A stretch of 64,000 bases of DNA, taken from NCBI GenBank assembly GCA_008704415.1, contig VXIS01000233.1, positions 1 through 64,000 on the forward strand, given 5' to 3'. Below the pieces are notes generated by a model that was not told the origin of the DNA, did no database searches, and worked only from the letters and a program-made list of their open reading frames with translations. The stretch is from Sphaerosporella brunnea. Its lineage: Eukaryota; Ascomycota; Pezizomycetes; Pezizales; Pyronemataceae. A program made the translations under genes and the position numbers. This document shows, piece by piece, positions 6,582 to 63,784 of the stretch; positions within the stretch are counted from its first letter, which is position 1, and the number at the start of each line of letters is the position of its first letter.

Positions 6582-7500
6582 GATCCGAGTATGAACGGGT
6601 GTAACAAAATATAACTAGGGTATGTGTAGAGATACCCTAGGGTTAGAGGTAATTTAGCCGCTTGGTTGCGCCTCTTAAAGGATAGAAACAAGCGCCAGGC
6701 TCCGAACCTCGCAATCAACACTGCTACACACGCTCTTGACCACACACCGCGTAAACTCAGCAATATCTCTTCATCAATACCATCAAACACCTCGTCCTTC
6801 TTTCTTTCCATCTTCCGTTAACCATGGCCGAATCCAGCTCAAATGGCCGAATCCAGCTCAATGGCCGAATCCAGCTCCATGGCTGAATCCAGATCAATTC
6901 AGGGACGCGCTCGGGCTAATGGCGCCGCTAGCGCGGCTCCCGCTGCTAAAGCTGAAACCCCTCAAGCCACCGGTATCTAACCACCTGTTACCTTCTACCG
7001 AGCCTTGCCTGACAACTGCACAATAGTTCTGTCGCCGCCCACCATTCCTGCGTCTGATACCAGGAAAGCCAAGCGCAAGGCCAAGGTCAAGGCCTGGCGC
7101 AAGGCCTGGCGCAAGGACAATCGCAAGGTGAACCCCCAGACCCCAACAACCCACAGCATTCGTTCTGACATCATCAGCAGAAGGATAGGCAGCGGGAAAA
7201 GAAGGTCACGGGCGAAACCGCAGTCACCCCGGCACCGGCGTCAGTTCGTCAAAAGAGTGGGTCCATTTTCGTCGATGTGTCTCATTGTACGGGCATGGAC
7301 GTCTCCTGGAATCTCGCCCCCGATGGCACTGTTGCCGGAATCACCTGCTCATTTCGTGGATCGAAGTCTTAGGGCGCTCTCATATTGTTTCGTCTTGTGT
7401 TGTGGAGGTTGTTATGGGTGGCTATTCTGGGTACGCAATAAATACATCGCGTTGGTCTGTCAACTGGTGGGTTTGGTGCCTTGCAAACGTGGAATAGTGG
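6582..7500 (+). repeat. Repeat unit A1 carrying a small spliced gene
   Basis: The unit begins GATCCGAGTATGAACGGG, the start shared with copies A2, A3 and A5 (A6 has it with one base changed; A4's is degraded). Two inverted repeats follow. The first, at 6614-6641, is ctagggtat...ataccctag. The second, at about 6656-6697, is a longer arm pair cgcttggtt...aacaagcgcc around a ctcttaaagg centre. The leader (caatcaacactgctacacacgctcttga) is also shared. The right boundary is approximate, because similarity to other copies fades after the stop codon and an AATAAATA polyadenylation-type signal near 7437. Confidence 0.75.
6843..7372 (+). CDS. Family A small protein, copy A1 (140 aa, two introns)
   Basis: Function unknown. 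Exons are 6843-6972, 7027-7127 and 7181-7372. Intron 1 (54 nt) is GTATCT...CTGAC...AATAG. Intron 2 (53 nt) is GTGAAC...CTGACATCATCAGCAG. Spliced, the product has an N-terminal MAESSS repeat region, an Ala-rich stretch, a basic central block rich in Lys/Arg (KAKRKAKVKAWRKAWRKDNR) that could be a nuclear localisation or nucleic-acid-binding region, and a C-terminal exon ending IFVDVSHCTGMDVSWN...TCSFRGSKS. One extra A within the first MAESSS unit breaks the frame from the upstream ATG at 6824, so the ATG at 6843 is used. Unspliced RNA would stop at the TAA at positions 6-8 of intron 1. The gene model is supported by six loci sharing the same intron lengths, phases and positions. Confidence 0.72.
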
Positions 7501-7680
7501 GCTATAGTCAGATAGAAACAGCAGATTTAAATACCGGTTCTCCGCATCATGTAGTTTTCTTGAGAAGAATTCAATCATGCGATCCACCATAGATTCATTT
7601 TTATCTGGCTGCACTTGTCGCAGACTTCCACGGATCGCAAAGTCTGAGGCGTCCGTTTCAATCAACAATTGATGATTTCC
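7500..7680 (-). pseudogene. Ty3/gypsy RNase H fragment
   Basis: The minus strand from about 7668 encodes LIETDASDFAIRGSLRQ followed by IEFFSRKLHDAENRY. This matches the RNase H region that follows the reverse transcriptase in Ty3/gypsy polyproteins (typical pattern: ETDASDxAIGxxLxQ ... FxSRKLxxAExNY). Nothing upstream or downstream in the polyprotein is kept. The same fragment recurs at 53.6-53.8 kb, and its side sequence recurs at 50.9-51.05 kb, each time next to a family A unit. Confidence 0.65.
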
Positions 7681-7859
7681 TTTCTCTGCTGACCGCGTAT
7701 TGGAGTGGATTTACTCAAGGCAGCGATGATTCATGGCGCTCCGCCGCACGAGGAACATCACATCAGAGATAGACTGATAATGCTGCCGACGAAGCGCGCA
7801 GAATGTGACCTCGTTCGACCTCCTCCGTCGATACAACCTGCCGCACTGGACAACGTTTA

Positions 7860-8280
7860 GCAATTCAAGCCGAAGCTCGAGCTTTGCAGGCTCGGCTCAC
7901 CTCACCGAGCCTAAGTCGTGATGATCCGAGCCGCAGTGAGCCTACCCCTCGGCTCAGCTTGCGCCGGATCATGTCCATCACTAGATGGAGGTGCAACCGA
8001 TGTAAGTATACTGCATGGAGCGACCGGATGGCATGGACAGCGCTGACCGCAGGTCTCAGCGGGCCGGAATCCAAAGACCGTCGCAAACTTCGCAATTGGC
8101 TTCTACCAAGAACCCACTGGAGCATCTGCGAGACAAGCACGACATTGGTCGCAACGGCATCCAGTCTGCAGCTTTCAACAGAGCGTCAGGCGCGTATCAA
8201 CGCGCTGAGCGGCAAGCCGCACCCCCCACGTTCCACTACCAGCTAACCGAAATGGGCCTCACAGCCAACAGCGATCCGTA
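7860..8280 (+). pseudogene. BED zinc-finger fragment of a hAT transposase
   Basis: The plus strand carries ITRWRCNRCKYTAW near 7977-8020 and, in another frame, NPLEHLRDKHDIGRNGIQ near 8110-8165. Together they give the C-x2-C...H-x4-H layout of the BED-type finger at the start of fungal hAT transposases. Frame changes between the parts may mark an intron or decay. The left edge (7865-7950) is rich in ctcgagc/ggctc motifs like hAT subterminal repeats. It is joined head to head with B4, so the two are probably separate fragments. Confidence 0.5.
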
Positions 8281-8879
8281 TATATCAAGGAAAGAAACAT
8301 GAACGCGAGATACAGATTCAGCAACCTGAAGGACCTCCAGATACCCCTGCATCTCCGCCCCCGCTGTGTCAAGTCACTCAGCATACGCTCAACCTGATGG
8401 ATTTGAGAACCCGCCGCACATACCAGATCTTCCATCGCCCAGGATTTGAGGCATTCTATGGCTTCCATAACATCGTCGGACTTGCGAGATTTGTGAGAAA
8501 AACGTCAGCATTTGCGCTGCGCCGTATTCCGACTCTCATCCGAGTTGTTGTTTTTCGGGTGGATCGAGCAGTCTTTTGATTGCGATCAACGCTTTAGCTG
8601 CGGCGGAACGATTAGTGCTTTTAATGCCCCGCGTTCGGCACAATGACCGACCCGACCTTAACCCGAAGAGACAACGCCGGCGGGGAAAGAAAGATTCAAC
8701 CATGCCGCGGTCTACTGTTCATGCTCCGCATTCCAGTGATGTAGGCAGGAGCATGCTTCGATAATATGACCGTGGGGTACTAGTATATCGCTCACTGACA
8801 ATCACTCGATGATGCAGCCGTTGCAGCCTGGCCGGCCGGCCGACGCGGCTGGCTATTTCGGCGGCTACTGACAACCCTG
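8281..8879 (-). mobile_element. Truncated B-family hAT element B4
   Basis: In reverse orientation this repeats the B1 interior: MEAIECLKSW and SQIHQVERMLSDL on the minus strand at 8468-8370, and gaccgacccgacctta near 8646. The outer end at 8879 is an inverted-repeat terminus (...actgacaaccctg), the inverse of a CAGGGTTGTCAGTAG start. The other terminus is missing: similarity stops near 8290, where the BED-finger fragment begins. The terminus directly abuts the end of repeat A2. Confidence 0.65.
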
Positions 8880-9980
8880 GATCCGAGTATGAACGGGATT
8901 TTTAAGTGTTGGGACACGGTAAAACCTAACGCACGTCCAGGTACGCCCAAATAGCTCACAAGAATTTGTAATATACGGAAGCTGCTCTCTCGTGCAGATT
9001 TCAAGTGTGCACAATAATCCGTGATTTTTCATGGATCTCAGCCGTACCAGCGACGACAACCTTTCCCTCCAAACACCACATCACCATTTTTTGACGCATT
9101 CCGTCTCCTCAGCCCTGGTAACTGCCAACACGCCCCGTTATTTTGCCGATTTTTTCGTTTCGCTGGACTCCCGATTCTTTCTCATCTCTTCTATGTTTTC
9201 GCGCGAGCTAGGTGCAGCCACGAAATGTGAATACAACTCCTGAACCGGTGTCGTTGGGTTTCCAGGCGATCTCCATGCCTGTATGATTGGAACAGTCGAC
9301 GAAAATGGACCTAGGTTTTTGACCAGCCGACACCGACGCCGGTCCCGCGGTGACTGCGAGGTCATTTTCGGGCTTCTTTTCCTGCTGGCGAGCCTTCTGC
9401 TGATGATGTCAGAGCGAATGCTGTCGGTTGTTGGGGTCTGGGGGTTCACCTTGCGCTGAGCCTTGCGCTTAGCGTTGCGCTTGGCTTTCTTGACATCAGA
9501 CGCAGGAATGGTGGGCGGCGACGGAACTATTGGTTGGTTGTCAGGCAAGGCTCGGTAGAGTGGAAGAGGTAGTTAGATACCGGTGGTTTCAGAGATTTCA
9601 CCGTCAGCAGCGGCAGTCACAACCGCAGCGTCGTCAGGAGCGTCAGGAGACGAAGTAGCAACCGCAGTGTCAGGAGCAGTCGCACCCGCAGCGCGACCCT
9701 GAAACAAGCGGCGAATGAAGGCGGCCATGACGTCAAGCGAGAAGGAAGAAGAAGGAAAAAAAGGAGAGATGCAAGACGAGACGAAGGGAGGCTGTAGATG
9801 CTATGGATGGAGTCGGAGTCGAGAGCAGGGTATGTACAAGTGTTGATTGCGAGGAACGGAGCCTAGCGCTTGGTTCTGCCTCTTGAAGTGCAGAACAAAG
9901 CGCTAGCTCTTACATCTAGCCCTAGGGTATCTCTACAGATACCCTAGTTCTCCCTTGTTACACCCGTTCATACTCGGATC
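8880..9980 (-). mobile_element. Repeat unit A2 with 18-bp terminal inverted repeats
   Basis: This 1101-bp unit starts GATCCGAGTATGAACGGG (8880-8897) and ends with its exact inverse complement (9963-9980). It is therefore bounded by perfect 18-bp inverted repeats and carries one family A gene on the minus strand. Inside the 5' end (read on minus) are the two family palindromes: 9920-9947 (ctagggtatc/gataccctag) and 9863-9907 (agcgcttggttctgc/gcagaacaaagcgct around ctcttgaa). The 3' region of about 310 bp is shared with A5. I see no clear target duplication. TIRs suggest a DNA-transposon-like or MITE-like unit, but only this copy shows both ends. Confidence 0.65.
9208..9728 (-). CDS. Family A small protein, copy A2 (137 aa, two introns)
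   Basis: Function unknown. Exons on the minus strand are 9728-9581, 9526-9450 and 9396-9208; introns are 54 and 53 nt, same phases as the other copies. The N-terminus is MAAFIRRLFQGR, like A3 and A6, followed by an Ala/Asp/Thr-rich stretch. The middle is Lys/Arg-rich (KKAKRNAKRKAQRK). Exon 3 is the class with IFVDCSNHTGMEIAWKPN and ends FTFRGCT, like A1 and A5. The 5' half therefore belongs to the A3/A6 subfamily and the 3' half to the A5 subfamily, which points to recombination within or near intron 1. Both introns and the full frame are intact. Confidence 0.72.
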
Positions 9981-10158
9981 ACTATGTGACTACCATAGTT
10001 TCGGTTTCATCATGTCTTGTGCTCACTCTGCGATATGGCTTACACGATTGTAATACTCCCGCTTGTGCAAATCGATCCTGCAGCAGAGTCAATCAGGTAT
10101 ACACACAGTTTTTCCATCAGGTCATCAGTGGGATCAGTGCATGCGCCCTCCGGAACCA

Positions 10159-10845
10159 CCACCAACCAGTGTTCCGTACGGTCCGTCCAGGACTGCAGAC
10201 CGGATCGGACCGGCTGGCACGATTCGATCCAGTCCGCCATGGCGGAGGACCACCACGATCCAGTATGATCCAGTCCGCGGGTGACAGGGACGGGGAAAGA
10301 CCGTAGTCGACTGCAGTCGACTGGATTATCAGTAAGGTTGTAATGTGTATGATAGTACCCGCTGAATCGGGGGACCCTTTCTTAGCCACGGTGAAAAAAA
10401 ATTTGAATCCCTTCGCCACCGGAAAGTCTCTCATCTCATAAATTAGGCGTCGTCGTCATGGTGTGTTCATAACCCTTCACAACCACCTCCGGAGATCTAC
10501 AGGAGCTTGATGAAATGCTCGAGGCACTGTCCAGAGCGGAGCTTGAGAAAAGAAAACAGAAGGGTGGGGGGGTTGAAGAGCACACGACCGTGAGAGCGGG
10601 ATAATGGAATGATAGGACGGCGGAATGGCGGCCATGTATTTGTAGAAAATCGACAACTGATATTGCACAACATAAGGGTTGACTGTGGACATGGTCGATT
10701 GCAGTCGACTGCAGCCGGTCCAGGCCGCAGTACCAAAAAGACTGTCGGTCCTGGTCTTTCCTGAAGACTGGATCGTCACTTGCGATCCAGTCCGGTCGAG
10801 AGTCAGGACGGGACCGAACGGACCGTACGGAAGGCTGCCACCAAC
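10159..10845. mobile_element. Non-autonomous hAT-like element C2 with 8-bp target duplication
   Basis: The element spans 10167-10837 (671 bp). It starts CAGTGTTCCGTACGGTCC and ends with the near-inverse GGACCGTACGGAAGGCTG. Identical 8-bp CCACCAAC copies flank it at 10159-10166 and 10838-10845. The subterminal parts are dense in short ggactggatc/gatccagtcc words and a GTCGACTGCAGTCGAC palindrome (10303-10320, again near 10690-10710). No transposase is encoded. CAGTG termini and 8-bp duplications fit hAT. Related: C1 (20.5 kb) and a truncated copy C3 (38.6 kb). Confidence 0.82.
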
Positions 10846-11097
10846 ACCGTGTAAGCAGCACTGGAGGCGTAGGCATTGGCGCAGTAGGTGCCGTCGAGGT
10901 CTATCCCACTGCTGATGGCAATCATGTGGCGTGGCCCGGCTGCAGATAAAAATCTGAGTGGGGTGCCGCTATATGAATACAGAGAGTATACTTCCTGCAT
11001 TGGCAGGGATAATGAAACTTGATGAGAGCATGCTACGACTTTACCCTCAAGAATTCTCAACCACCCACCGTCACTCGCGATGGTGGTCCAAGAAACC
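10846..11097. other. Short intergenic stretch
   Basis: The stretch between C2 and the acidic-repeat gene has no recognised signal. It could hold a first exon of the following gene, which lacks an ATG in its open frame. Confidence 0.3.
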
Positions 11098-12283
11098 CTA
11101 ATTCCAACTCACCCTACGTGCGACCGAGGTCGGCGAGCCAGATGATGTTGTCCAGCAGGCGGATGACCTTGCCCATACGCCCGATGAGAACGAACCCGTG
11201 GGTAATGGCGATGTTGTCCAGGATGACGTCGACGACCATACGCGCGATGAGAACCAACTCGTGGGTAATGCCGATGTTGTCCAAGCTGATGACTTCAACA
11301 GTTCGTCCGCTGAGCCCCAACTCGTGGATGAGGAGGTTGTCCAGGATGACGTCGACCATACGCCCGATGAGAACGAACTCGTGGGTAATGGCGATGTTGT
11401 CCAAGCTGATGACTTCAACCGCTCGTCCGCTGAATCCAACTCGTGGATGAGGCGGTTGTCCACCAAGCTACTGGCGTCCACGATTTGCCCGCACAGCAGT
11501 CGAGGGTTCGGACCCGTTGGTATGGATCGCTCCCAGCGATGGGTACTGATCGGTCTTTACGATCCGAGCCGCCAGCACGCGTCGTTTTCAGGTACCCCAG
11601 TCCCGGACTCCGGGATCGAGGGATGTGATCTATGGTCGCAATGAGGTGTGCAGCTTCGACACTGTTTGTGTCGTTTCTGAATTCGCTACAAGGATGGCGA
11701 GCCTGCTGGCGCAGCGGGACGAAATGCGTCCTCTCGTGATGTTTCTCCGCGGCCAGTCCAGAAGCGGAAAGGGCTGACGCGCAAGATTCAAGAACCTTTA
11801 GAAGGCGCACAGATCTCCATCACTTCGATTGAAGGTGATGCGGCCCCACGTACCCATCCGAAGGACAAAGCCAGAAGGGAGAAACTCACGCCGAGATTTC
11901 TCGACTTCGTGGCCCGCTGGTCGAAGACTGCGAAGACCCCGGCGAACGAGAGTTCGTCACCAGCGGTTGTTGCCTATAGCATGGACGGTCTTCTCTTGCT
12001 CGACATGCCAGGCGGAGAAGAGAGTGGAGCACGTCCCGCGGAAACTCGAATGATCAACACCACCAATATGGAGGTGTTGGCTACTCTTGATGCTTTCCAT
12101 TGCGGGAAGGTCTCCCGAAGCTTCTCACGCAGCCCCGCTGTGAAGTTCGTCTTGGACACATTAAAACGCCCCGGGGTGCGTGTCCTTGTTGCCACTGTAG
12201 TGCGCGATACGGATGTCGGCAACCCAAAGGCTATCGGGCCTTTGCAGGATCGATTCTTGAGGCAGCCGGCCAAGCGGGCTTAG
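11098..12283 (+). pseudogene. Decayed or misassembled gene with acidic 20-residue tandem repeats
   Basis: About five tandem units of about 60 bp (11139-11450) encode alternating acidic repeats of type DVVQxDDVDHTPDENELVGNG and DVVQADDFNxSSAEPQLVDE. The repeat frame has no ATG after the stop near 11098. A one-base loss near 11436 shifts the frame, which then continues as LVDEAVVHQATGVHDLPAQQ. A possible intron (11602-11651, GTACCC...TGTGCAG) leads to DTVCVVSEFATRMASLLAQR. After another one-base shift near 11777, an open stretch to 12283 reads LTRKIQEPLEGAQISITSIE and ends PLQDRFLRQPAKRA. The late part looks coding (TMEVLATLDAFHCGKVSRSF-like segment, no stops). I know no family for it. It could be a live gene with unrecognised introns or sequencing errors. 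Confidence 0.42.
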
Positions 12284-12717
12284 CGGCATATGTTGTTTGG
12301 CGCATACTGACAACAGCTCAAGCAGGGTGTTTGTTTTGATGCGAGTGAGAGGTCAGGTTGACGTTGGTAAGATGGTTGGTTAAAAACCCCGTGCTTCATA
12401 TGAACTTACTGACAGGGCAGCGGCGGAGGCAGGGAGCGAGGCTGAGTCAGTACCTTTTTCCTGGTGAAGCTATTAGGGGATTCAGGTTTTTTAACGGCTG
12501 ACAAAATGCCCGTGCCGGGGAGGAACTATATAGTGTACATAGGAAATATACGGCATGTACACTGAATGCAGAGAAAATGCGCGACTACACAGGACTTGCC
12601 AAGCATACGTCGGTCCGCGGGGATAGCCTTTGGCGAGTCGTTCGTGCAAGAAGCTTTGGGTCCGTGTCTTGAACCTGGAACCACACGCACATACAGGCAT
12701 GGTGGAGCTCCGCGGGG
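12284..12717. other. Intergenic stretch
   Basis: Short frames only; nothing recognised. Confidence 0.4.
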
Positions 12718-13140
12718 CCACCCCACACAATCACCATCTATGGGGGGATAAATCTGAATACAGCGGGAGACAGAGCGTCCTTTAATGCCCTATATTTGCC
12801 GGTTTCAGCTCATTCCATTGAGAGTAACAGCTTCCCGCTATTGTTGAAACGGACAGGACATAGGACCTCCGCGGGGCCACCCCACACAACAACCATCTAT
12901 GGGGGGATGAGTGTGAATACATAGGGAGCAAGAGCGTTCTTTAATGCCCTATATTTGCCAGTTTCAGGTCATTCCAGCTATTTTTGAACCGGACAAGCCA
13001 TTGGACCTCTGCGAGGCCACCCCACAAATCCACCATCCATGGGGGCACAACTCTGAGAACAGAGGGAGAAACGGCGTTCTCTAATGCCCTATATTTGCGA
13101 GTTTCAGCTCATTCCGTTGAGAGTAACAGCCTTAGCACGA
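12718..13140 (+). repeat. Three tandem units of about 140-150 bp
   Basis: Units start at 12718, 12867 and 13007, each with ctccgcggggccaccccaca (third unit ctctgcgagg...). Each continues through an accatctatggggg motif and taatgccctatatttgc, then gtttcagctcattcc. Units 1 and 3 share attccattgagagtaacagc; unit 2 lacks that piece. No open frame crosses all units, so this looks like a short noncoding satellite. Confidence 0.8.
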
Positions 13141-13936: not shown

Positions 13937-16405
13937 ATGACGTCCTCGCTCGGCAAGCGTCCTCGGGCTGAAGAGCACACACCGTCGCGTCCTTCACCGT
14001 ATTCCTCGGCGCGACCCGCCCCCTTCCATTCGGCCTCCGTGAATCCATCCCCCCCGCCCTCCCCGCTGGCTCGCCCGCTGCCACCACCTCCCCCGCGCTT
14101 CGACGCCGCACCGTCCTCGTCATCGATCAGCCGCGATGCACCGCCGCGAGCCAGCTTTCCTCGGACGCCGTCGGTCACCGATCGTCAGGCGTGGCCCGCG
14201 CACCGCCAATCGCGAAAGCCTAAACGCGCCTCTTTCGCGCCGCCCGCGGAGAAGGAAACGCCCTGCAAGCGCAACTCGGAAAGCGTGCGCGAGCACGCGC
14301 ACAACGTTGAAGGCGCGCGCGCGGACCCGTCGAAGACTCGCCGAAGCGAGATGGACTTGCTGCTCTACGATGAGCTGTACGGCAAAGTCGCCTTCGGAGT
14401 TGGCGACATGTGGCGCTCGTTTCCCGTCACCGAGTCGGCGCGCGCGATGCTGCAGTACGCGATCGAACGACGTCTCTACGACCCTGGCGCCGGCTGGACC
14501 GCGTGGCCGGCGAATCCGACGGAGCCCAAAGTGCTCGGCTTTCTGCTGGAACTGCTCTCCGCTCTGCGCGCTGCCAGCGTGTGGCCGAGTGCGGTCGACA
14601 CCTTCGAATACGTGCCCGCAGGCTCAGTCGTCCTCGACGACGGCGATTGCGAGCGCAAAACGGACGTTGTTGTTGTCGGGCCGCACCATGACGGGCAACG
14701 GGATCTGTCCTGGTTGGATGTGCGCATTGTCGGCGAGCTGAAGTCAAACCCGGCCAAATCGAACCTCGACGACACGATCCTCCAGGTGGCGAACTACGCG
14801 CGCGAAGTCTTCGGCTGCCAGCCTAATCGCCGCTGGGTGCCCGCGTTCACGTTGTGCGGGTCCGACCTCCGTGTCTGGCGGTTTGACCGTGCCGGTGCGT
14901 GCGGATCCTCCCTGATCAACATCCACGACGAACCGGGGCAGTTCTTGGCCACCATCACCTCCTACGCCACGATGAGTGCCGCAGATGTCGGCTTCGACCC
15001 TTCGATTTTGTTTCAGACCGAGACGGGTGAGGTGGTGTTCGACCCTACCGTGCACTGCAGCCTCGCAGCCCCGCCGGCCGACGACGACGCGGACATGCCG
15101 GACGTGGTTCCTGCGCCGGATTCGCAGGGCGATGAGGAAAACCCCGAGTGCCAACCCGCTGCGAACGACCGTCTCCCCACCCCTCTCGATTCCTACCCTT
15201 ACGTCTATGTGCCGGCCGCAATCCCGGAATTCCCGGCCGCCACCGAGGGCCTCACGCTTCCGCACGGCTCGCTGTCCTCGTTTCCGTGCACTGCCTGGAC
15301 TGCGCTGTCGCTGCATCCGGAGCCGATCTCTCGCCGCATCGCCATCGCCACCCGTGGAAGTGTTTGTTGGAAGGCTCGTCCCCGCGAGGAGGGCCCGGGC
15401 TCACCGTGGCTGTACGTGGTGAAAGATCAATGGCGCTCGTTCGAAAGAGACCCTGAGGGTTGCTTCCTTGGGTTGGCTGAGGAAGGGACCGAAGGCGTGG
15501 CCCGCTATATCTGGCACAGCGATCTGTGCGTCCCCCTGTCCGCGGGTCGGCTGCACCTCGACGAAATCGCCAACCTGCGTCCTGCCTCGGCTGTGTCAAC
15601 GTGTTTCAACGCCGCCGCCGCCGCGCAATACCCGGCTCCCACCAAGACCAGCACAAATTTGTTCCACGCTGGACACACCTGCGATAATCGGGTCCACACG
15701 CGGCTACTCAGCGGCCCGGTCGGCCGGCCCCTGCTGCAATTCGGCACCTACACAAATCTCCTCCTGTGCCTGAAGCAGGCGATCGAAGGGCACAGATACA
15801 TGTACACCAAACACGGCGTCCTCCACCGCGACGTGAGCAAAAACAACATCCTCCTCCACCCGGCCACGCCGGGTGGTTTCTTGATCGATTTCGACCTCGC
15901 CATATTCAACGACCGCACCCGCACCAGCGGCGCCGCGCACCGCACCGGCACCTTCGATTTCATGGCGTTGGATGTGCTCCTGCCCCGCCCGGGCCTGGTC
16001 CACACCCCGCTGCACGACCTGGAAAGCTTCTTCTACGTCCTGCTCTGGATCGGCATCTACTACACAAAGTCGGGGCAACGCCGCGACCCGCCCCCGCGGC
16101 ACACCATCTTCAAGCCGCCCGCGCCGGGCGAGGCAGAGCCGTGGCAAGCAGCGAGGAACAACAAAACGACGCACACGCTGCCCGCAAACTTCAAAATCTT
16201 TGTGCTCCCGACTCTGGAGCCTGGCGCACGAGAGTGCCTGTCGGGTACGTTGAACGCATGGCGGAGAGTGATGTTCTCCTTTCTATATGCCGACGAGGAG
16301 GAGGAAGGTTCGGGTGGAGGTGTCACGGAGGAGGTTATCGCGCAGCGCTATCGAGAAGTCATCGCTATTTTGGAGAAAGGGATCGCGGAGTTGGGTGGGC
16401 GGTGA
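13937..16405 (+). CDS. FunK1-type fungal protein kinase (822 aa, intact)
   Basis: This is a complete, apparently intronless protein kinase of the FunK1 family, an expansion known from mushroom-forming fungi whose substrates are unknown. Residues 1-135 are Pro/Ser-rich and disordered, with basic clusters (KRPR, RKPKR) that could direct it to the nucleus. A conserved FunK1 N-terminal region follows, with VRIVGELKSNP near residues 263-271 and FTLCGSDLRVWRFDRAG near 308. The kinase core has the catalytic loop VLHRDVSKNNILL (HRD at 630-632, Asn 637) and the metal-binding segment as DFD (651-653) instead of the usual DFG, a FunK1 trait. Then come GTFDFMALDVL and the family signature HDLESFFYVLLWIGIYY. 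An acidic/Gly stretch lies near 785. It is GC-rich and much better preserved than the relative at 24.2-25.7 kb. The ATG at 13937 is the first in frame. Confidence 0.93.
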   Translation: MTSSLGKRPRAEEHTPSRPSPYSSARPAPFHSASVNPSPPPSPLARPLPPPPPRFDAAPSSSSISRDAPPRASFPRTPSVTDRQAWPAHRQSRKPKRASFAPPAEKETPCKRNSESVREHAHNVEGARADPSKTRRSEMDLLLYDELYGKVAFGVGDMWRSFPVTESARAMLQYAIERRLYDPGAGWTAWPANPTEPKVLGFLLELLSALRAASVWPSAVDTFEYVPAGSVVLDDGDCERKTDVVVVGPHHDGQRDLSWLDVRIVGELKSNPAKSNLDDTILQVANYAREVFGCQPNRRWVPAFTLCGSDLRVWRFDRAGACGSSLINIHDEPGQFLATITSYATMSAADVGFDPSILFQTETGEVVFDPTVHCSLAAPPADDDADMPDVVPAPDSQGDEENPECQPAANDRLPTPLDSYPYVYVPAAIPEFPAATEGLTLPHGSLSSFPCTAWTALSLHPEPISRRIAIATRGSVCWKARPREEGPGSPWLYVVKDQWRSFERDPEGCFLGLAEEGTEGVARYIWHSDLCVPLSAGRLHLDEIANLRPASAVSTCFNAAAAAQYPAPTKTSTNLFHAGHTCDNRVHTRLLSGPVGRPLLQFGTYTNLLLCLKQAIEGHRYMYTKHGVLHRDVSKNNILLHPATPGGFLIDFDLAIFNDRTRTSGAAHRTGTFDFMALDVLLPRPGLVHTPLHDLESFFYVLLWIGIYYTKSGQRRDPPPRHTIFKPPAPGEAEPWQAARNNKTTHTLPANFKIFVLPTLEPGARECLSGTLNAWRRVMFSFLYADEEEEGSGGGVTEEVIAQRYREVIAILEKGIAELGGR

Positions 16406-38660: not shown

Positions 38661-38852
38661 GTTGGTGGTGGTTTCGGAGGGCGCATGCACTGATCCCACT
38701 GATGACCTGATGGAAAAACTGTGTGTATACCTGATTGACTCTGCTGCAGGATCGACATCGATTTGCACATGCGGGAGTATTACAATCGTGTAAGCCATAT
38801 CGCAGAGTGAGCGCAAGACATGATGAAACCGAAGCTATCGTAGTCACATAGT
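38661..38852. repeat. Duplicated 5' flank shared by A2 and A3
   Basis: About 190 bp nearly identical, in inverse orientation, to 9981-10166. It has an open frame in both copies (conserved SEGACTDPTDDLMEKLCVYL stretch) continuing into the C element, but I see no start context or domain that would make it a gene. It may just be young duplicated sequence. Confidence 0.7.
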
Positions 38853-39790
38853 GATCCGAGTATGAACGGGTGTAACAAAATAGAACTAGGGTATGTGTAG
38901 AAATACCCTAGGGTTAGAGGTAAGTTAGCCGCTTGGTTGTGCCTCTTAAAAGGCAGAACCAAGCGCTAGGCTCCATTCCTCGCAATCAACACTTCTACAT
39001 TCTTCAGCAACCGCCGCTCTCGACTCCGACTCCATCCATAGCATCTGCAGCCTCCCTTCGTCTCGTCTTGCATCTCTCCTTTTTTTCCTTCTTCTTCCTT
39101 TTCGCTTGACGTCATGGCCGCCTTCATTCGCCGCGTCTTTCAGGGACGCGTTGCGGGTGCTGCTGCTCCTGACACTGCGGTTGCTACTCCGGCTCCTGAC
39201 GCTCCTGACGACGCTGCGGTTGTGACTGCCGCTGCTGACGGTGAATTCTCTGAAGCCACCGGTATCTAACTACCTCTTCCACTCTACCGAGCCTTGCCTG
39301 ACAACCAACCAATAGTTCCGCCGCCGCCCACGATCCCACGGTCTGATGTCAAGAAAGGCAAGCGCAAGGCCAACCGGAAGCCCAAGGCCAAGGTGAACCC
39401 CCTGACCCCGACATCCAAGAGCAATTGCGCTGACATTATCAGCAGATGCCTATCGAAAATGACAATCCTCGGAAGGTTCCCAAGCTCGAGAGCAACACCC
39501 CGGAATCGGCGTCGGCATCCGCGTCGGCGGTTCAGGGAAACACCACGTCCATTAACGTCGAGGTGCACAATTATCAAGGCGTGGACATTGGCTGGAATAT
39601 CAACGCCAATGCCACTGTTTCTGCGGTTACCTTCTCGTTTGGTGGATCGACGTCTTAACGCACTCTCATCATGTTTCGTCTTGTCTTGTGGAGGTTTCGA
39701 AGCGGGGTTCATTGTGGCTACGGAATCAATATGTTGCGTCGGTGCTTACATTCATACCATTCGCTGTTGTTGTGCAAATATCCACTTCGA
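38853..39790 (+). repeat. Repeat unit A3 carrying a small spliced gene
   Basis: Begins GATCCGAGTATGAACGGG, then the two palindromes (38885-38912, and 38928-38970 with cgcttggttgtgc/ggcagaaccaagcg around ctcttaaa). The 3' side matches A6 up to gcaaatatccacttcga (39790) and then diverges abruptly. That gives a shared right edge for these two copies, different from the A2/A5 3' end. Confidence 0.75.
39114..39658 (+). CDS. Family A small protein, copy A3 (145 aa, two introns)
   Basis: Function unknown. Exons are 39114-39261, 39316-39392 and 39446-39658, with introns of 54 and 53 nt (GTATCT...AATAG; GTGAAC...CTGACATTATCAGCAG). The product starts MAAFIRRVFQGR, followed by an Ala/Asp-rich stretch. 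The middle is basic (KKGKRKANRKPKAK). Exon 3 begins MPIENDNPRKVPKLES and ends with a likely beta-rich segment, SINVEVHNYQGVDIGWNINA, then TFSFGGSTS. No signal peptide or membrane span is visible. The closest copy is A6, differing at few residues. Read without splicing, the exon 3 frame appears as a separate 70-residue frame, which would mislead automatic annotation. Confidence 0.75.
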
Positions 39791-40584: not shown

Positions 40585-40593
40585 GTGGGCCAT

Positions 40594-49919: not shown

Positions 49920-51097
49920 CCGCCTCCCTGTTGCGCATTGTGATCGGCAGGTCGTTTCATAGATCATGCGCCCTGGAAAATCTCATCACCGATTTCGTTG
50001 ATTCTATTTTTTTTTTTTTCGTTCTGTCGGCTATTGTGCCCCTTCCACACAGCGAAATTTGCAGCATACCCTCCCACCCACTCAGATGGCTTTTTCATGC
50101 GCCACGGTCCCCTGACACATGACCTCACAGTATGGACCGGGACAATGAGCCTCGTGGCAGTCAAACCCGCGGGCATCTACCCTGGCCTAGCTATCGTGCG
50201 AAGGTTTCAAACTGCGCTTCAAGAAATGGTGAACTCAGCCTGCAATGTTCGTATCCGAGCACTTTGGCAAGAACCAGGCAAAGCAGTCGAAGCCCGAAGA
50301 CAATGAAGTATGAAGTTGGGCAAAGCCACAACGGCTGTCGAGGCCTCTGTCTGCCTGCATGTCCGCAAAATTGGATCACCGGAGATAACTCTGGCGACGC
50401 CACGTGTCACAACCTAAGTAGCCAGTCGAATCGACGTGCGCCGCTGCCTATGCTGTGGGATGCCCTAGTTACCACTCAGTTCAGTTCAACGCGTCGCAAC
50501 CAAACGCGCCACATGTAGAGGCTGTTAATGTTACCAGTCCGTCGATACAGCGCGTCGGGTGGAGAAGCCAGGGTTCCGGTAACCCCGGTAACGGGCATAC
50601 ATAGATGTGCAACTTTTTTTTATTATTACCATTATTATTACTATTAAGTAAGGTAGTATTTGGCTGGGTAATTTGCGGTGTATGGTAAATAAAAAAACGG
50701 ATATTATGCCCCATACCGAGTGGATGTAGTTGGGAAATGGCATAGAATTGTATCGATCCGTGCGGGTGCTGACGGTGAAGTGAGACGGTCTTGCCTCCTG
50801 GACTCTAACTCACTACCTCCTCTCTTTACTTTGCCGCGCCGTGTTTCACACGCATACACCCTGACTGCAACTTACATGTGACTTTACGTGAAGTGGCACT
50901 GTACTGATGACTCCACGCCGTGTGGTCACCACACGGCTGTTCACTAGTTTAGGTACAATCACCAGTTGTCGATCGCATATGGTGGAAACAGCAGTTCGTC
51001 GCGTACTTTGAAATGCCGTGTTTCCGCACCGTGTAGGTTTCATCACTGCACTATTATGACGGTCCGGTGCTGTCTGCCTACACCACATTGCATCCAG
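49920..51097. other. Intergenic stretch; right part is 5' flank of A4
   Basis: No gene recognised. T-run at 50009-50019. A near-perfect palindrome, ccgtgtggtcaccacacgg (50918-50936), resembles one near 6385. The part 50940-51040 resembles the gypsy-remnant side sequence at 53575-53690. Confidence 0.4.
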
Positions 51098-51985
51098 GTC
51101 TGTGTATGAACGGGTGTAACAAGGTAGAACTGGGGTATCTGTCTTAAAACGCAGAACCATGCGCCAGGCTCCGTCCCACGCAATCAACACTTCTACACAC
51201 GCTCTTGACACACACAGCGTAAATTCAGCAACATCTCTCCATCCATACCATCAACAACCTCCCTGCTTCGCGCCTTCCATCTCTTCTTTTTTTCCTTCCT
51301 CGATGTCTGTTGATATCATGGCCGCTTTCATTCGCAGCTTAATTCAAGGACCCGGTCCGGCTGCTGCTGCCGCTGACGCTGCAAACGCTGCAGTTGCGAC
51401 TACGGTGGCTGACGCTCTTGACGCTGCTGTTTCGACTCCCGCTACTGACGGGGAAACCTCTGTAGCCACCGGTATCTAACTACCTCTTCCACTCTACCGA
51501 GCCTTGCCTGACAACCATACAATAGTACCCTGGCTTTCAGCGTCAGGTCGGTCCGACGATGTCAAGAAACACAAGCGCAAGCCCAAGCGCAAGTGCAAGG
51601 CCAAGGTGAACCCCCTGACCCCGACAACCAAGAGCATTTGCTCTGACATCACCAGCAGATGCCTATCGAAAATGACAATCCTCGGAAGGTTCCCAAGCTC
51701 AAGAGCGACACCAGTGCTTCCGACAACGGGCTCGCAGCCACCCCGGGATTGTCGTCGGCGCCGGCGGTTCAACGAAACACCAGGTCCATTAACGTCGATG
51801 TGCCCAATTATCAAGGGGTGGACATTGCCTGGAATCTCGACGCCAATGGCACTGTTTCTGCAGTTACCTTCTCATTTGGTGGATCGACGTCTTAGGGCAA
51901 CTATATCGTGTTTCGTCTTGTGTTGTGGAGGTCTCGATGGGTGTCTGTTCTGGCTACGCATTCAATATATGGCATCGGTCCTGAC
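51098..51985 (+). repeat. Repeat unit A4 carrying a small spliced gene
   Basis: Starts with a decayed form of the family start (tgtgtatgaacgggtgtaac). A deletion has removed the first palindrome and one arm of the second: cttaaaacgcagaaccatgc remains at 51143. The leader, gene and first about 90 bp of 3' sequence match the other copies. The sequence after 52015 is the inverse of 53555-53602. Confidence 0.7.
51318..51895 (+). CDS. Family A small protein, copy A4 (156 aa, two introns)
   Basis: Function unknown. Exons are 51318-51471, 51526-51605 and 51659-51895; introns 54 and 53 nt. An in-frame ATG at 51303 would add five residues. The N-terminus is MAAFIRSLIQGPGP with a long Ala/Asp/Thr stretch. 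The middle is DDVKKHKRKPKRKCKAK. Exon 3 begins MPIENDNPRKVPKLKS, carries a ten-residue insertion relative to A3, and ends SINVDVPNYQGVDIAWNLDA then TFSFGGSTS. Exon 2 differs at its start (VPWLSASGRSD instead of VPPPPTIPRSD), showing divergence with frame and splice sites kept. Confidence 0.72.
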
Positions 51986-53960: not shown

Positions 53961-54040
53961 GCTTCGTTGCTTTCATCGCTCAGGGTGATCCAAAGTGATT
54001 GGTCATTGGCTGGTGGTGGAATGGTGTATTACTCAATAGA

Positions 54041-55643
54041 GATCCGAGTATGAACGGGTGTAACAAAATATAACTAGGGTATGTGTACAGATACCCTAGG
54101 GTTAGAGGTAATTTAGCCGCTTGGTTGCGCCTCTTAAAGGGCAGAACCAAGCTCTACGCTCCGTACCTCGCAATCAACACTGCTACACACGCTCTTGACA
54201 CACACCGCGTAAACTCAGCAACATCTCTTCATCTATAACATCAACAACCTCGTCTTCTTTCTTTCCATCTTCTTTTACCATGGCCGAATCCAGCTCAATG
54301 GCCGAATCCAGCTCGATGGCCGAATCTAGATCAATTCAGGGACGCGCTCCAGCTGTTGACGCGTCTGCCGAGACTACCGCTGTTGACGCTGAGAACACTG
54401 AAACCCATGGTATCTAACTACCTCTTCCACTCTACCGAGCCTTGGCTGACAACTACACAATAGTTCCGTCACCGCCCACCATTGCTGCGTCTGATGTCGA
54501 GAAAGCCAAGCGCAACGCAAAGCGCAACGCAAAGCGCAAACTTCAGCGCAAGGTTAACCCCCAGACCGCGACAACCAACAGCATTCGTTCTGACATCTTC
54601 AACAGAAGGCTAGGCAGCAGGAAAAGAAGCCGGCCGCAGTCACCACGGGACCAGCCTCGGTGTCGGCTGTTCAAAAGCCTGGGTCCATTTTCGTCGACCG
54701 TTCCAATTATATGGCCGAATCCAGCTCAATGGCCGAATCCAGCTCAATGGCCGAAGCCAGAGCAATTCAGGGACGCGCTGCGGCTGCTGACGCCTCTGGC
54801 GCCACTCCCGCTGCTAACGGTGAAACCCCTCAAGCCACCGGTATCTAACCACCTGTTACTCTCTACCGAGCCTTGCCTGACAACTACACAATAGTTCCGT
54901 CGCCGCCCACCATTCCTGCGTCTGATACCAGGAAAGCCAGGCGCAAGGCCAGGTTCAAGGCCTGGCGCAAGGACAATCGCAAGGTGAACCCCCAGACCCC
55001 AACAACCAACAGCATTCGCTCTGACATCATCAGCAGAAGGCCCGCCAGCAGGAAAACAAGCCCGAAAATGACCTCGCAGTCACCGCGGGACCGGCGTCCG
55101 TGTCGGCTGGTCAAAAACCTAGGTCCATTTTCGTCGACTGTTCCAATCATACAGGCATGGAGATAGCCTGGAAACCCAACGACACCGGTTCAGGAGTTAT
55201 ATTCACATTTCGTGGCTCCAACTAGCTCGCGTGGAAACTGTGGTAGGCACTGTAAGACGGCCGTGATGCGCGCTTCTGACATTTGGCAGGTGGAGGACTG
55301 GCTACTACTACCCGACGGATTTTTCAATGGCACGAAATAAGTCTCATCTGCCTCAAGACGACAATATTACACAAAAAGATAGAAGAGATGAGAAACAATT
55401 GGGAGTCAAGTGCGACGAAAAAATCGGCAAAATAGCGGTGCGTGTTGGCAGTTACCAGGGTTGAGGAGAAGGAATGCGTCAAAAAGTGGTGATGTGGTGT
55501 TTGGAGGGACAGGTTGTCGTCGCTGTTACGGCTGAGATCCATGAAAAATCACGGATTATTATGCACGCTTGAAATTTGCACGAGAGAGCAGCTTCCGTAT
55601 ATTACAAATTGTTGTGAGCTATTTGGGTGTACCCGGACGTGCG
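54041..55643 (+). repeat. Repeat unit A5, tandem-module version, cut by a hAT element
   Basis: Begins GATCCGAGTATGAACGGG with both palindromes (54074-54100; about 54117-54156, cgcttggttgcgc/gcagaaccaagc). It contains two gene modules fused in frame. From 55320 it shares the about 310-bp 3' region of A2. It stops at gacgtgcg (55643), exactly where the hAT terminus begins, so its own 3' terminus (about 45 bp by comparison with A2) is lost. A 5'-end promoter copy is present only for the first module. Confidence 0.75.
54280..55225 (+). CDS. Family A fusion protein, copy A5 (243 aa, two modules, four introns)
   Basis: Exons are 54280-54409, 54464-54552, 54606-54840, 54895-54983 and 55037-55225; introns 54, 53, 54 and 53 nt. 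Module 1 (MAESSS repeats, basic block NAKRNAKRKLQRK) runs into its third exon as far as SIFVDRSNY. There it passes, in frame, into the first exon of a second module (MAESSSMAESSSMAEARAIQ), which then has its own two introns and a full C-terminal exon ending IFVDCSNHTGMEIAWKPN...FTFRGSN. The centre exon is 235 bp and open throughout. Frame sums work: 732 coding bases including the stop. No in-frame stop arises if all four introns are removed. Intron 2 of module 1 begins GTTAAC instead of GTGAAC. Expression is inference. Confidence 0.7.
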
Positions 55644-56097
55644 TAGTGTTGCGCACGAGCGACGGCTCGAGCAAAAAGCTCGAGCCGCGAGCACGAGCCC
55701 GCTCGAGTCTATGTATTTTTGAGCTCGAGTGCGCTCGATCGAAAGGTTTTTGAGCTCGAGTCGGACTCGAGTCATTCGAGCTTTCTAGATAGCAGCAGGT
55801 TTCACCGCCAGTACCCTCAAGTTGACTCCACGTCCTAAATCCACCCCGCTCCCCCCCCCGCTTCTACAACCACCCCGCTCCCCCCCCCCTTCTACAACCA
55901 CCCCGCTCCCCCCTCTCCCCCTCCCCCTCTCAACTCCAAAACCCCAACTTCACCCGGACAACCTCACGGATGCGAGCCAACCAACCGCCAGCGCTCAGCG
56001 CACGTATGGAAGAAGATGCCATGCGAGCATTCAACAAAGACCTCAGTGGACGTTGGGGTAAGGAGCTGCTTTTCTCACCGCCGTTGACCTCACTCTA

Positions 56098-56532: not shown

Positions 56533-56785
56533 GAACTCAGCAACCGACTCGGTAGAGGTACCGGTGGCACATTGCAGCCCATAGCAGCACACCTTGGACA
56601 AATGCCACCCAAGCAGGTCTCGGCAGGCAGGCAGGAGAGCGGTTCTCAGCAAGCAAGTACCGGCAGCTGCTAGCAGAATTCATTGTTGAATCAAGCTCCG
56701 GTTTTCGAATTGTAGAATATCCCCATCATTTCACTGTCTTATTTCCTATCTCAACGGAAATGCTGCCCTCATTGGCCGAGACTCA

Positions 56786-57307
56786 GTGCGGCGGGATACG
56801 ATCGAAATCAAAAACAAGTACCAGGAAAAGCTGCTGGAGGAGATCCAAAGCCATGTGGGTTCAAGAGGACAGAACACTGGATATTTAAGCCTTACAATGG
56901 AGGCATCAGAGAGTACACGTTATTTGTGCGAACCCCCGGTGGACTTAAAGACCGACCCGCTTCACTGGTGGAAGCTCAATCAGGACCGATTCCGAACTCT
57001 TGCAAGAATGGCACGAGATTACCTAGCGATATGTGCCTTCAGCGTACCCTGCGAGCAACTCTTCTCAGTGGCTGGTGACATAATCACCAAGAAGCGGAAC
57101 CGTCTTCTCGAAGAATCGAGTCGCATTCTTCTACTGCTCAAGCATTGGTTGAAGCAGACGGATGTGAAACCCTGGGAAATATGGGGATATGAGGAGGCGG
57201 AGCACGAACCAGCACCGACTGGTGACCATGATGCAGCGGAGGGTGTTGAATCGGACATTGAAGGTTCGCTGAACTCCTCTTCGGGTCTCTCAGACTTATC
57301 CGATTGA
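56786..57307 (+). pseudogene. hAT transposase C-terminal part (dimerisation domain)
   Basis: The 173-residue frame has VDLKTDPLHWWKLNQDRFRT then LARMARDYLAICA, leading into the hATC dimerisation core around residues 85-120 (SVPCEQLFSVAGDIITKKRN), then an acidic tail (GVESDIEGSLNSSSGLSDLS). It is well preserved, but the RNase H-like catalytic residues are not here. The gap to the BED finger is only about 250 bp, far too short for the usual core. Confidence 0.7.
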
Positions 57308-57547
57308 TTTGGGATTGATCTGCGCACTTTATACTCTCATAGATAATTTACATTGCCCTGCAACAGCTCCCGCTGTCCCGACCTCGGACCCGCGTGCGTC
57401 AAAATGTGATTTTATATATGGCGGGCTCGAGCTTTAGCTCGAGCTCATGCTTCCCCGGCTCGGGCTCGTGAGTCGAGCGTCAAAATCGCACGAGCGGGCT
57501 CGAGTCTACCCGCGAGCTCGACTCGACTCCGCTCGTGCGCAACACTA

Positions 57548-58249
57548 TTCCGAACCATCAATGAAGTGCCATAGACCCAGCTGCATAAGCAGATCGCTGA
57601 TGTCTAGCACCCACGTCTTATAGTTATGCTGGTTGAGATTGACGGTGGTCGTAATCGCAGCGGTGGTGGACATGGCGACGTTCTGGTGCGTCGGCGGTGT
57701 GGGTGATGACCGATCAATGAAACTCCGGGTGGCGTTGAAAGTGCAGAAAAGAAGAAAATTGTGGCAAGCAAAGGGTGGTGCCGGCAAGCGAGCGGATGAG
57801 CGAGAGTATAGGACTCTAGAGCTCAAAGAGGAATCGAGGGGACGAGCGAGAGTAAAGGACTCTAGGGCTCGAGAGGATGAGCGAGAGTAGAAGACTCCAG
57901 GGTTCGAGAGGATGAGCGAGAGTAGAAGACTCTAGGGCTCGAGATGATGAGCGAGAGTAGATGACTCTGGGGCTCAAACTCATCGTGATACCAATAGGAA
58001 AGACGCTCAGAAGAAGCGCAAGAGAGGACTCATAACCTGTTGAACGACGAGGTCGAGAGAGGAGATGAAACTTAGTTCTCTATCCGACGCCGGAGGGCGA
58101 GCTTCGGGCCTTTATATACAGCACCGCGTGGGCAAAACAACAGGAAGAAGGGCAACTATCAGCCTACGGCAAACGGAAACAAGAAATCTAGACCCACGGT
58201 CGCCACCCGAAAATCCTTCACGGTTGCCACCCGAAATCATTTTCCAACA
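57548..58249 (-). mobile_element. 5' end of a Ty1/copia retrotransposon (LTR, primer site, gag start)
   Basis: On the minus strand an LTR starts TGTTGGAAAATG (58249), with tatataaagg near 58110, and ends about 57990. A ttggtatcacgatgag stretch follows that fits a primer-binding site of the TGGTATCA type (initiator-Met tRNA). The leader holds four to five about 35-bp tandem repeats (57800-57970, cgagccctagagtc-ttctactctcgctcat). The gag start, ATG at 57674, reads MSTTAAITTTVNLNQHNYKT then WVLDISDLLMQLGLWHFIDG. The element is cut at 57548 by the hAT terminus D1. No downstream gag-pol or second LTR is in the window. Confidence 0.78.
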
Positions 58250-62399: not shown

Positions 62400-62504
62400 A
62401 AACCAGACTAAAGCTCAACCATTTTTGATTGAGTGGACTGGAGCGAGCTCGTGCTCGCCGCTCGAGTTTTGTGCTCGAGCTGGCTCCGCTCGTGCGCAAT
62501 ACGA
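62400..62504 (+). mobile_element. Right-end fragment of a D-type hAT element
   Basis: Has the ctcgag/gagctcgtgctcg subterminal words and ends gctcgtgcgcaatacga (62488-62504), differing at two positions from the 17-bp terminus of D1. The rest of the element is absent. Confidence 0.6.
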
Positions 62505-62850
62505 TACCACAGCGGCGTGCCTGCAGAGATCCACCACAAATATGGAGACAACAATCAGTTGATGGCGAACCAAGATGAAGCATGGAAGCGACACCCGAAA
62601 GAATTCTCGTAGAGATACGATGGTGTTATCATTCAACGTTTAACGGATGGAATAGCTATCCCTGAGTGTGCGTCCTTGCAACAGGGGACGGTGCATCAAC
62701 GGTGTACACTTGGGGAATCATCACAGCTGCCCGATGCGGAGGTCTGGTCGGTTGGTCGTCACTCCCCCGTGCCGGTGGGTTTATCTTTCAAGTAGCGAAG
62801 AGTTCCAAAGAAGGGCAGGTTTTCCACGGCTGTATATTACAATTCGCCAT
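62505..62850. other. Short stretch between hAT fragment and A6
   Basis: No gene recognised. Its right edge marks the point where A6 and A3 stop being alike. Confidence 0.4.
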
Positions 62851-63784
62851 CGAAGTGGATATTTGCACAACAACGGCGAAAGGTATGAATGAAAGGACCG
62901 ACGCAACATATTTATTCAGTAGCCAGAATGAACCCCCCTTTGAAACCTCCACAAGACAAGACGAAACACGATGAGAGTGCCCTAAGACGTCGATCCACCA
63001 AATGAGAAGGTAACTGCAGAAGCAGTGCCATTGGCGTTGATATTCCAGGCAATGTCCACGCCTTGGTAATTGGGCACCTCGACGTTAATGGACGTGGTGT
63101 TTCCCTGAACCGCCGACGCGGACGCCGACGCCGATTCCGGGGTTGTGCTCTCGAGCTTGGGAACCTTCCGAGGATTGTCATTTTCGATAGGCATCTGCTG
63201 ATGATGTCAGAGCGATTGCTCTTGGATGTCGGGGTCAGGGGGTTCACCTTGGCCTTGCGCTTCCGGTTGGCCTTGCGCTTGCCTTTCTTGAGATCAGACG
63301 CTGGGATCGTGGGCGGCGGCGGAACTATTGGTTGGTTGTCAGGCAAGGCCCGGTAGAGTGGAAGAGGTAGTTAGATACCGGTGGCTTCAGAGAATTCACC
63401 GTCAGCAGCGGCAGTCACAACCGCAGCGTCGTCAGGAGCGTCAGGAGCCGGAGTAGCAACCGCAGTGTCAGGAGCAGCAGCACCCGCAACGCGTCCCTGA
63501 AAGACGCGTCGGATGAAGGCGGCCATGACGTCAAGCGAAAAGGAAGAAGAAGGAAAAAAAGGAGAGATGCAAGACGAGACGAAGGGAGGCTGCAGATGCT
63601 ATGGATGGAGTCGGAGTCGAGAGCGGTTGCTGAAGAATGTTGAAGTGTTGATTGCGAGGAATGGAGCCTAGCGCTTGGTTCTACCTCTTAAAGTGCAGAA
63701 CCAAGGGCTAGCTCTTACATCTAACCCTAGGGCACCGATACAGATACCCTAGTTCTACCTTGTTACACCCGTTCATACTCGGAT
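62851..63784 (-). repeat. Repeat unit A6 carrying a small spliced gene
   Basis: On the minus strand it starts ATCCGAGTATGAACGGG (63784), followed by the palindromes at 63722-63753 and 63667-63706 (agcgcttggttctac/gcagaaccaaggg around ctcttaaa). It is close to A3 along its whole length and ends at the same place (gcaaatatccacttcg). The 5' flank differs from A3's, so it is a separate insertion or duplication. Confidence 0.75.
62982..63526 (-). CDS. Family A small protein, copy A6 (145 aa, two introns)
   Basis: Function unknown. Exons on the minus strand are 63526-63379, 63324-63248 and 63194-62982; introns 54 and 53 nt. The product starts MAAFIRRVFQGR, has the basic block KKGKRKANRKRKAK, and exon 3 begins MPIENDNPRKVPKLES and ends SINVEVPNYQGVDIAWNINA then TFSFGGSTS. 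Against A3 it differs at only about ten residues, with no frameshift, loss of splice site or stop. An AATAAATA signal lies about 75 bp after the stop. Confidence 0.75.

Follow-up and report, generated by a model that had tools for sequence, protein, structure and literature searches.

Introduction

At the NAIP locus of mammals, a long terminal repeat (LTR) lies at the 5' end of a gene of variable copy number and, to judge from the title of the report, acts as its promoter (PMC1781489). In the fungi of the Pezizomycotina, GalEa and FunCo1 were described as LTR (copia) elements; FunCo1 has a primer-binding site (PBS) complementary to an internal region of a tRNA, matching tRNA-Lys (ATTAAGAGTCT), and GalEa is given there without a PBS (PMC5445492). 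Revolver, a transposon-like multi-gene family of the Triticeae, measures ~3 kb and carries 20-bp terminal inverted repeats (PMC3203089). Here, a stretch of 64,000 nucleotides from the genome of Sphaerosporella brunnea (contig VXIS01000233.1), referred to as the window, was analyzed together with the rest of that genome. It contains six loci of a family of small two-intron genes, each of them preceded by the remnant of an LTR.

The title of the NAIP report speaks of repeated recruitment by one known locus, whereas in S. brunnea one LTR type and an orphan gene are concerned, which were likely duplicated together. The LTR family belongs, like GalEa and FunCo1, to the Pezizomycotina and shares with FunCo1 a PBS complementary to the inside of a tRNA, but the region matched is the anticodon arm of tRNA-Met. 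Compared with Revolver, no regular terminal inverted repeats were found in the S. brunnea units, and their 5' end is LTR-like. We consider it probable, with some reservation, that these genes form an orphan family in which most readable copies stand behind an LTR remnant (likely copia-related and likely a promoter) and which spread as DNA. If true, this would be a compact case of the origin of a species-restricted family, in which the end of a retrotransposon offers a ready promoter, duplication spreads the unit and conserved introns permit the swapping of exons; as copies of several ages are present in one genome, the order of events would be testable with public reads. The LTR remnant upstream of the genes, a mosaic copy and the slow change of the introns go beyond an earlier sequence-only reading of the window.

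Results

Gene models in the window and in the genome

The window genes were called modules 1 to 6. Locus 5 comprises two modules (5a and 5b), at 54.3 and 54.8 kb, which form one four-intron gene because exon 3 of 5a continues in frame into exon 1 of 5b. Database proteins were labelled P0001 to P0019, and contig names were shortened to C plus a number, the window contig being C150. In the seven modules, intron 1 was always 54 nt long and in phase 1, intron 2 was always 53 nt long and in phase 0, and both had GT...AG ends. The length of exon 2 (77, 77, 77, 80, 89, 89, and 101 nt) was in every case 2 mod 3. The sequence-only reading had proposed exactly such a family, with six loci, seven modules, 54/53-nt introns at the same places and phases and exons differing by multiples of three, and within the window this description was borne out. 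In module 1 the first ATG (6824) does not fit the reading frame, which instead runs from 6843. An alternative acceptor of intron 2, one AG earlier, shortens this intron to 50 nt and adds one Gln; it is used in P0005 and P0006.

A search of the genome with exon 3 gave 49 matches, the core pattern of intron 1 gave 51 at up to three mismatches (0 with the reversed pattern), and the pattern of intron 2 gave 56, several of them outside the reading. Those stretches with both an intron-1 and an intron-2 match were read as 40 gene models, duplicates and broken copies included; six of the 51 intron-1 places fall outside this reading (C421:1046, C434:200997, C605:94643, C623:36256, C623:94759, and C623:94894). 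Intron 1 was 54 nt long in 38/40 models (53 and 55 nt in the others) and intron 2 was 53 nt long in 36/40 (51, 52, 52, and 54 nt in the others), so the lengths, which had been called invariant, do vary outside the window. Both introns had GT...AG ends in 32 models, CTGAC was found in 37/40 for each intron, and the tandem acceptor of intron 2 in 33. A filter demanding a 54-nt intron 1, GT-AG ends, an exon 2 of 2 mod 3 and an exon 3 of at least 50 aa was passed by 26 of the 40 models. The broken copies include C533, C190_258618, C574, and C632. Among the duplicates, C179_260699 equals C434_7950 over 1,796 nt and C210_51946 equals C150_9449 over 1,784 nt. In the identical copies at C179:260k and C434:8k, ESSS-type repeats (MAESSS, IVESSS, TVESSS) form a long array close to the N-terminus. 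Furthermore, a stretch of 9,022 alignment columns at 99.6% identity, containing modules 1 and 2, is shared in inverted order by the window (3883-12895) and C210:48500-57500 (L042), and is either a recent duplication or an assembly duplicate.

The reading of intron 1 as retained coding sequence was rejected, as pN/pS in that frame (0.84) was near the value of another frame (0.89). The database models P0007, P0008, P0010, and P0015 treat the 54-nt intron 1 as an exon. It is stop-free in 12 of the 33 distinct 54-nt sequences, and the exon reading is ruled out in the other 21 by an in-frame stop. The 3' part of intron 2 resembles, with 2 mismatches in 25, stretches outside the family in L069 (C638) and L070 (C348), which end in AA instead of AG and lie, judged by eye, inside an apparent retrotransposon open frame; a stretch of this type is perhaps the source of part of intron 2.

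Across the protein searches 19 different related proteins were obtained, all of them from S. brunnea (11/11, 12/12, and 5/5 database matches in individual searches). This host is an ascomycete of the Pezizales and not a basidiomycete, as had been supposed from the sequence. The expectation that annotation pipelines would miss the family was also mistaken: FN846DRAFT hypothetical proteins exist for it, with P0001, P0005, and P0006 on the window contig. The spliced protein of module 3, at 39 kb, equals P0001 (hypothetical protein FN846DRAFT_893678; 100% over 145 aa) and the five-intron model of C461 equals P0012 (311 aa); the family was thus already annotated. The S. brunnea genome paper reports RNA-seq of mycelium and 12,597 genes (PMC6908789). 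Literature searches on Sphaerosporella and the orphan family, LTR promoters in Pezizomycetes, conserved introns, and lineage-specific families, with most subscription journals outside their range, returned no description of it. In the database searched the family is thus so far restricted to S. brunnea, an orphan family that is annotated and, as far as these literature searches reach, undescribed.

An LTR remnant lies upstream of most of the genes

An nhmmer profile of length 210 was built from eight LTR-like repeats, none of which leads into a gene of the family. This profile matched the leaders of all six window loci (E between 1.9e-8 and 1.1e-17), and nothing in the reversed window. When up to 900 nt upstream of intron 1 were checked in the 40 genome models, a same-strand match at E<1e-3 was obtained in 30, as against 0/40 in reversed controls. 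The old, diverged copy C574 also has such an upstream match (7.8e-6). Additionally, the 18-mer GATCCGAGTATGAACGGG was found with up to three mismatches 206-261 nt before the start codon at every window locus, and its 16-nt core gave 100 genome matches at up to one mismatch (1 in the reversed control). The LTR remnant is likely a promoter of the family genes, and we propose it as a candidate for this role.

Rfam gave no match in the window or in L075. A conserved RNA hairpin in the leader was considered and rejected: single leaders fold, and an RNAalifold analysis of 24 leaders (20 from family genes and 4 others) returned two pairs and no double changes. In L044 (3037-3560) a ~90-nt unit, which is also present in L039, is repeated in tandem about five times after the 18-mer. 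A leader of the LTR type was also observed in L074 (C556:249440-250900), where the open frame that comes ~0.5 kb after it, of ~190 codons, is a different one; the LTR may thus precede other genes too.

Identity of the LTR family

Six of the eight LTR-like repeats begin with TGTTGA (L073 with CGTTGAG and L039 with TGCTGAG), and seven were cut by the analyst at the final ACA (L072 elsewhere). Where no family gene follows, the repeats mostly begin with TGTTGAG and end with CAACA. Ends of the TG...CA type with mostly unlike flanks were thus found for the LTR; some gene copies also have common flanks. Directly after the LTR, 4/8 repeats (L039, L040, L047, and L056a) have a PBS-like string that agrees, apart from some differences, with GGTTATGAGCCCGGCGC; in L047 it follows both copies. 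The common form of this string is the exact reverse complement of part of the anticodon arm of tRNA-Met (17/17 nt), an arm with nine copies in the genome, one of which was checked with ARAGORN. The LTR-PBS junction occurs at 71 genome sites at up to three mismatches, and at none in the control. On C22, sites like the 18-mer at 5903 and 9585, together with a PBS at 9444, may mark an element with two LTRs. The reverse transcriptase family RVT_2 has 133 matches in the genome. Four of them follow one of the 71 PBS sites on the same strand at 3,268-3,414 nt, measured to the near edges (C135, C345, C168, and C312), where ~0.06 would be expected by hand arithmetic, and a fifth lies at 5.2 kb. Taken from these sequence features, the source of the LTR is likely a copia-related retrotransposon, a label that remains weak.

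Selection, rates of change and the predicted protein

Exon 3 is under purifying selection. The ratio of nonsynonymous to synonymous change (dN/dS) was 0.45 (0.31-0.63) in the nine copies of subfamily a, with dS 0.27 and dN 0.12, and 0.53 (0.37-0.82) in the seven copies of subfamily b. A codon model compared with omega = 1 gave 0.497 for subfamily a (10 copies, p=2e-4) and 0.595 for subfamily b (7 copies, p=0.017). Selection on the protein, which the sequence-only reading had suggested as one cause of the kept frames, can therefore be upheld for exon 3 (omega 0.50 and 0.60) and not for exons 1 and 2, where dN/dS is near 1. The introns differed between copies by K 0.06-0.13, compared with an exon-3 dS of 0.27-0.41; the dS of exons 1 and 2 was 0.16-0.29, and most of these ranges overlap those of the introns. 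The K values of the LTR leader were 0.26 (a) and 0.16 (b) and those of the 3' flank 0.56 and 0.84. The introns are thus clearly slower only when compared with exon-3 synonymous sites and flanks. Gene conversion or a function could lie behind this slow change.

No Pfam family was recognised over its cut-off and no relative in the PDB was accepted, in agreement with the earlier statement that the family has no recognised homologue. At E<=1, Pfam gave nothing for P0008, P0012-P0015, and P0017; the sole match of a typed exon 3 was DUF1257 (E=0.058, below its cut-off), and precomputed Pfam entries were empty for 18 of the 19 related proteins. P0018 matches Myb_DNA-bind_3 only downstream of the family region, and this Myb/SANT part is probably a gene-model fusion. 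The best PDB profile match, a PRKR-interacting protein, was not accepted (E=0.13). AlphaFold2 (AF2) models of P0001 (11 sequences) and P0013 (16 sequences) reached a mean pLDDT of 55.6 and 58.9, respectively. The former shows an N-terminal helix at 2-10 and a beta-hairpin at 120-141; the latter a basic helix at 52-78, in blocks of mean 78-94, the hairpin and C-terminal helices. A C-terminal beta-hairpin in the predicted model is in line with the beta-rich C-terminus that had been thought likely. The P0013 model had no PDB fold match at E<=0.001 in Foldseek, and no signal peptide was obvious, judged by eye only. The product is, as a guess from these models, a basic protein that may be nuclear or bound to nucleic acid and that has a selected contact module. 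An extra tail is present in P0012-P0014 and likewise at the end of P0017 and P0019, which differ otherwise. A SAM-like helical nature was considered for it, which the searches did not support: neither Pfam (typed C461 tail, P0012-P0014, and P0017) nor a sequence search of the PDB returned a match, and the candidate was dropped.

Mosaic structure of module 2

Compared with module 3, module 2 is 97% identical upstream, 92% in the leader, 93% in exon 1 (taken here as the 150 nt before intron 1) and 100% in intron 1, but only 79% in exon 2, 83% in intron 2 and 71% in exon 3. Compared with 5b, the order is reversed: exon 1 81%, intron 1 87%, exon 2 84%, intron 2 98%, and exon 3 96%, with 95% over 107 columns in the far 3' flank and a near flank aligned over 23 columns only. 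Module 2 is therefore a mosaic, with its 5' half from the 39-kb (module 3) subfamily and its 3' half from the 54.8-kb (5b) subfamily, the switch being located around exon 2. Recombination between paralogues likely produced it. Among the 40 models, 12 pair an AFIRR start with an exon 3 of type a, 13 pair MAESSS with type b, and three, of which the C210 duplicate is one, pair AFIRR with type b; the other 12 belong to none of these groups.

Repeats of exon-intron units occur in C461, C254, C224, and C412. A bolder possibility is that the orphan gene arose when a truncated LTR and a short coding unit were fused into a self-perpetuating cassette. In it the LTR would supply each new copy with a promoter, the two near-invariant introns would serve as joints for swapping, duplicating and acquiring exons (as in the two N-terminal types, the repeated units and the added helical tail) and only the C-terminal hairpin would be selected. 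We put this forward as a tentative idea, and a rather doubtful one.

Discussion

How the family spread

In the account that we favor, the LTR joined the gene before the family expanded, and the union was then copied as DNA, by segmental and ectopic duplication and not by reverse transcription. Transcription would begin in the LTR and the two short introns would be spliced out. The resulting protein would be small and basic, its N-terminus evolving fast, with a helix rich in Lys/Arg and, at the C-terminus, a short beta-hairpin module. The helix would likely keep the protein nuclear or attached to nucleic acid, and the hairpin module would do the selected work, probably a protein contact. The union of LTR and gene is likely older than the expansion because the same-strand LTR is found upstream of 30/40 models, the old C574 among them. 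Its multiplication as DNA is inferred from the window copies, which keep their introns and in which neither a PBS after the LTR nor, by the LTR profile, a regular 3' LTR was found.

Several observations weigh against this account. Ten of the 40 models have no LTR match at E<1e-3, and the other 30 are not all independent, since they include two second modules of fused genes, C190_258618 and three duplicates; without these the count is 24/34. The match of C190_258618 also overlaps a stronger, opposite-strand match of its neighbor. The remnants are partial: matches begin at model position 9-77 in 24/30 (at 1-2 in six) and end at 144-196 of 210 in 29/30, so that the terminal part of the LTR was usually lost at the junction with the gene; the broken copy C632 is the only one to reach position 210. 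Three profile repeats (L047, L056a, and L056b) have family genes in their neighborhood that they do not lead into, and an upstream flank is common to L039 and L040. Regarding the source, the target-site duplications of the two solo LTRs checked agree in 4/5 bases (AACAT/AATAT in L075 and TAGCC/TAGAC in L073). Of the nine RVT_2 matches found up to 8 kb downstream of PBS sites, five share the strand of the PBS and four have the opposite one, and those at 3,268-3,414 nt follow PBS variants (ending in CTTCGCC or CTTCGCCACGAC) rather than the common form. C624 did not hold up as an element with two LTRs, as the pair was not clean. Moreover, a full-length same-strand LTR lies 2.6 kb beyond the end of module 2, with module 1 between them in the opposite direction. 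As to the protein, dN/dS was 1.04 (0.67-1.70) in exon 1 (subfamily a, 8 copies) and 1.16 (0.53-4.62) and 0.98 (0.57-1.90) in exon 2; the exon-3 result of subfamily b is marginally significant, in a set that includes the frameshifted C75_1178; and the mechanism is a guess because the AF2 models are poor.

The copies might instead be decaying repeat debris, whose frames are open through youth and whose protein is unused. The neutral-looking exons 1 and 2, the several broken copies (such as C533, C190_258618, C574, and C632) and the transposon remnants nearby agree with this. We nevertheless judge it unlikely, given that exon 3 has a dN/dS below 1 in both subfamilies, that 26/40 models pass the filter on splice sites, exon-2 frame and exon-3 length and that the introns change more slowly than exon-3 synonymous sites. 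It is somewhat harder still to accept that the genes travelled as cargo of non-autonomous LTR retrotransposons and spread by reverse transcription. Copies are dispersed with an LTR match upstream of most models, the LTR family has a PBS elsewhere in the genome, module 2 has the full-length same-strand LTR mentioned above and C190_257809 has a same-strand LTR ~0.4 kb past its stop, one that is itself followed by a PBS. However, the PBS is missing after the LTR in every window copy, no same-strand LTR is close downstream apart from that of module 2 and those of the next genes (modules 3 to 4 and 4 to 5), and both introns are present in 7/7 modules, although copying through a spliced sense RNA by reverse transcription would have deleted them.

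Mobile introns of the introner type could account for the likeness of the introns, which have diverged less from copy to copy than the synonymous sites of exon 3 and of which intron-1 units are repeated in C461 (four), C254, C224, and C412. Every intron-1 place read belongs to the family (six of the 51 being outside the reading), and the repeated units bring their exon along, which means that whole exon-intron units were duplicated; this explanation is therefore very improbable. Least credible of all is a DNA transposon with the 18-mer GATCCGAGTATGAACGGG as its terminal inverted repeat. The 18-mer is indeed inverted around module 2, at 8880 (+) and 9963 (-), and likewise on C210, but the two arrangements are a single case because C210 is the 99.6% copy of the module-2 stretch. 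Immediately behind the other window genes no facing 18-mer is present (1/6 loci), the homology of modules 2 and 3 continues past the supposed end (97% over 185 columns) and the LTR profile contains the 18-mer in its interior. The 18-mer was consequently rejected as a terminal inverted repeat, with facing copies at one window locus and its duplicate only.

Features of the window

Table 1. Positions of the LTR matches and family genes in the window.
Feature	Position	Strand	Details
LTR remnant, module 1	6581..6753	+	nhmmer E=1.7e-14
LTR remnant, module 2	9830..9982	-	nhmmer E=4.4e-15
LTR remnant, module 3	38851..39002	+	nhmmer E=6.1e-14
LTR remnant, module 4	51082..51223	+	nhmmer E=1.9e-8
LTR remnant, module 5	54021..54213	+	nhmmer E=1.1e-17
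LTR remnant, module 6	63639..63825	-	nhmmer E=5.3e-17; LTR-type 5' end TGTTGAGATCTGGAGT at 63825
Separate full-length LTR match	6403..6579	-	E=2.1e-25, model 1-210; faces the module-1 leader head to head; same strand as module 2
Partial LTR match	5906-5997	+	LTR profile
Module 1 gene	6843..7372	+	exons 6843-6972, 7027-7127, 7181-7372; introns 6973-7026, 7128-7180; 140 aa
Module 2 gene	9208..9728	-	exons 9728-9581, 9526-9450, 9396-9208; database model P0006
Module 3 gene	39114..39658	+	exons 39114-39261, 39316-39392, 39446-39658; 145 aa
Module 4 gene	51303..51895	+	exons 51303-51471, 51526-51605, 51659-51895; database model P0005, earlier acceptor
Modules 5a and 5b, in-frame fusion	54280..55225	+	introns 54410-54463, 54553-54605, 54841-54894, 54984-55036
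Module 6 gene	62982..63526	-	exons 63526-63379, 63324-63248, 63194-62982

Other sequences were also observed in the window. A remnant of a Tc1/mariner-type transposase (HTH_Tnp_Tc3_2, E=6e-7, just under the cut-off) is located at 52602-53240 (+), and a hAT dimerisation domain (E=1.2e-18) at 56786-57307 (+). An open reading frame of 822 aa at 13937-16405 (+) contains a fungal protein kinase domain (PF17667, E=2.2e-96). Tandem repeats were found with a 35-nt unit at 57829-57968 and a ~140-nt unit at 12673-13111.

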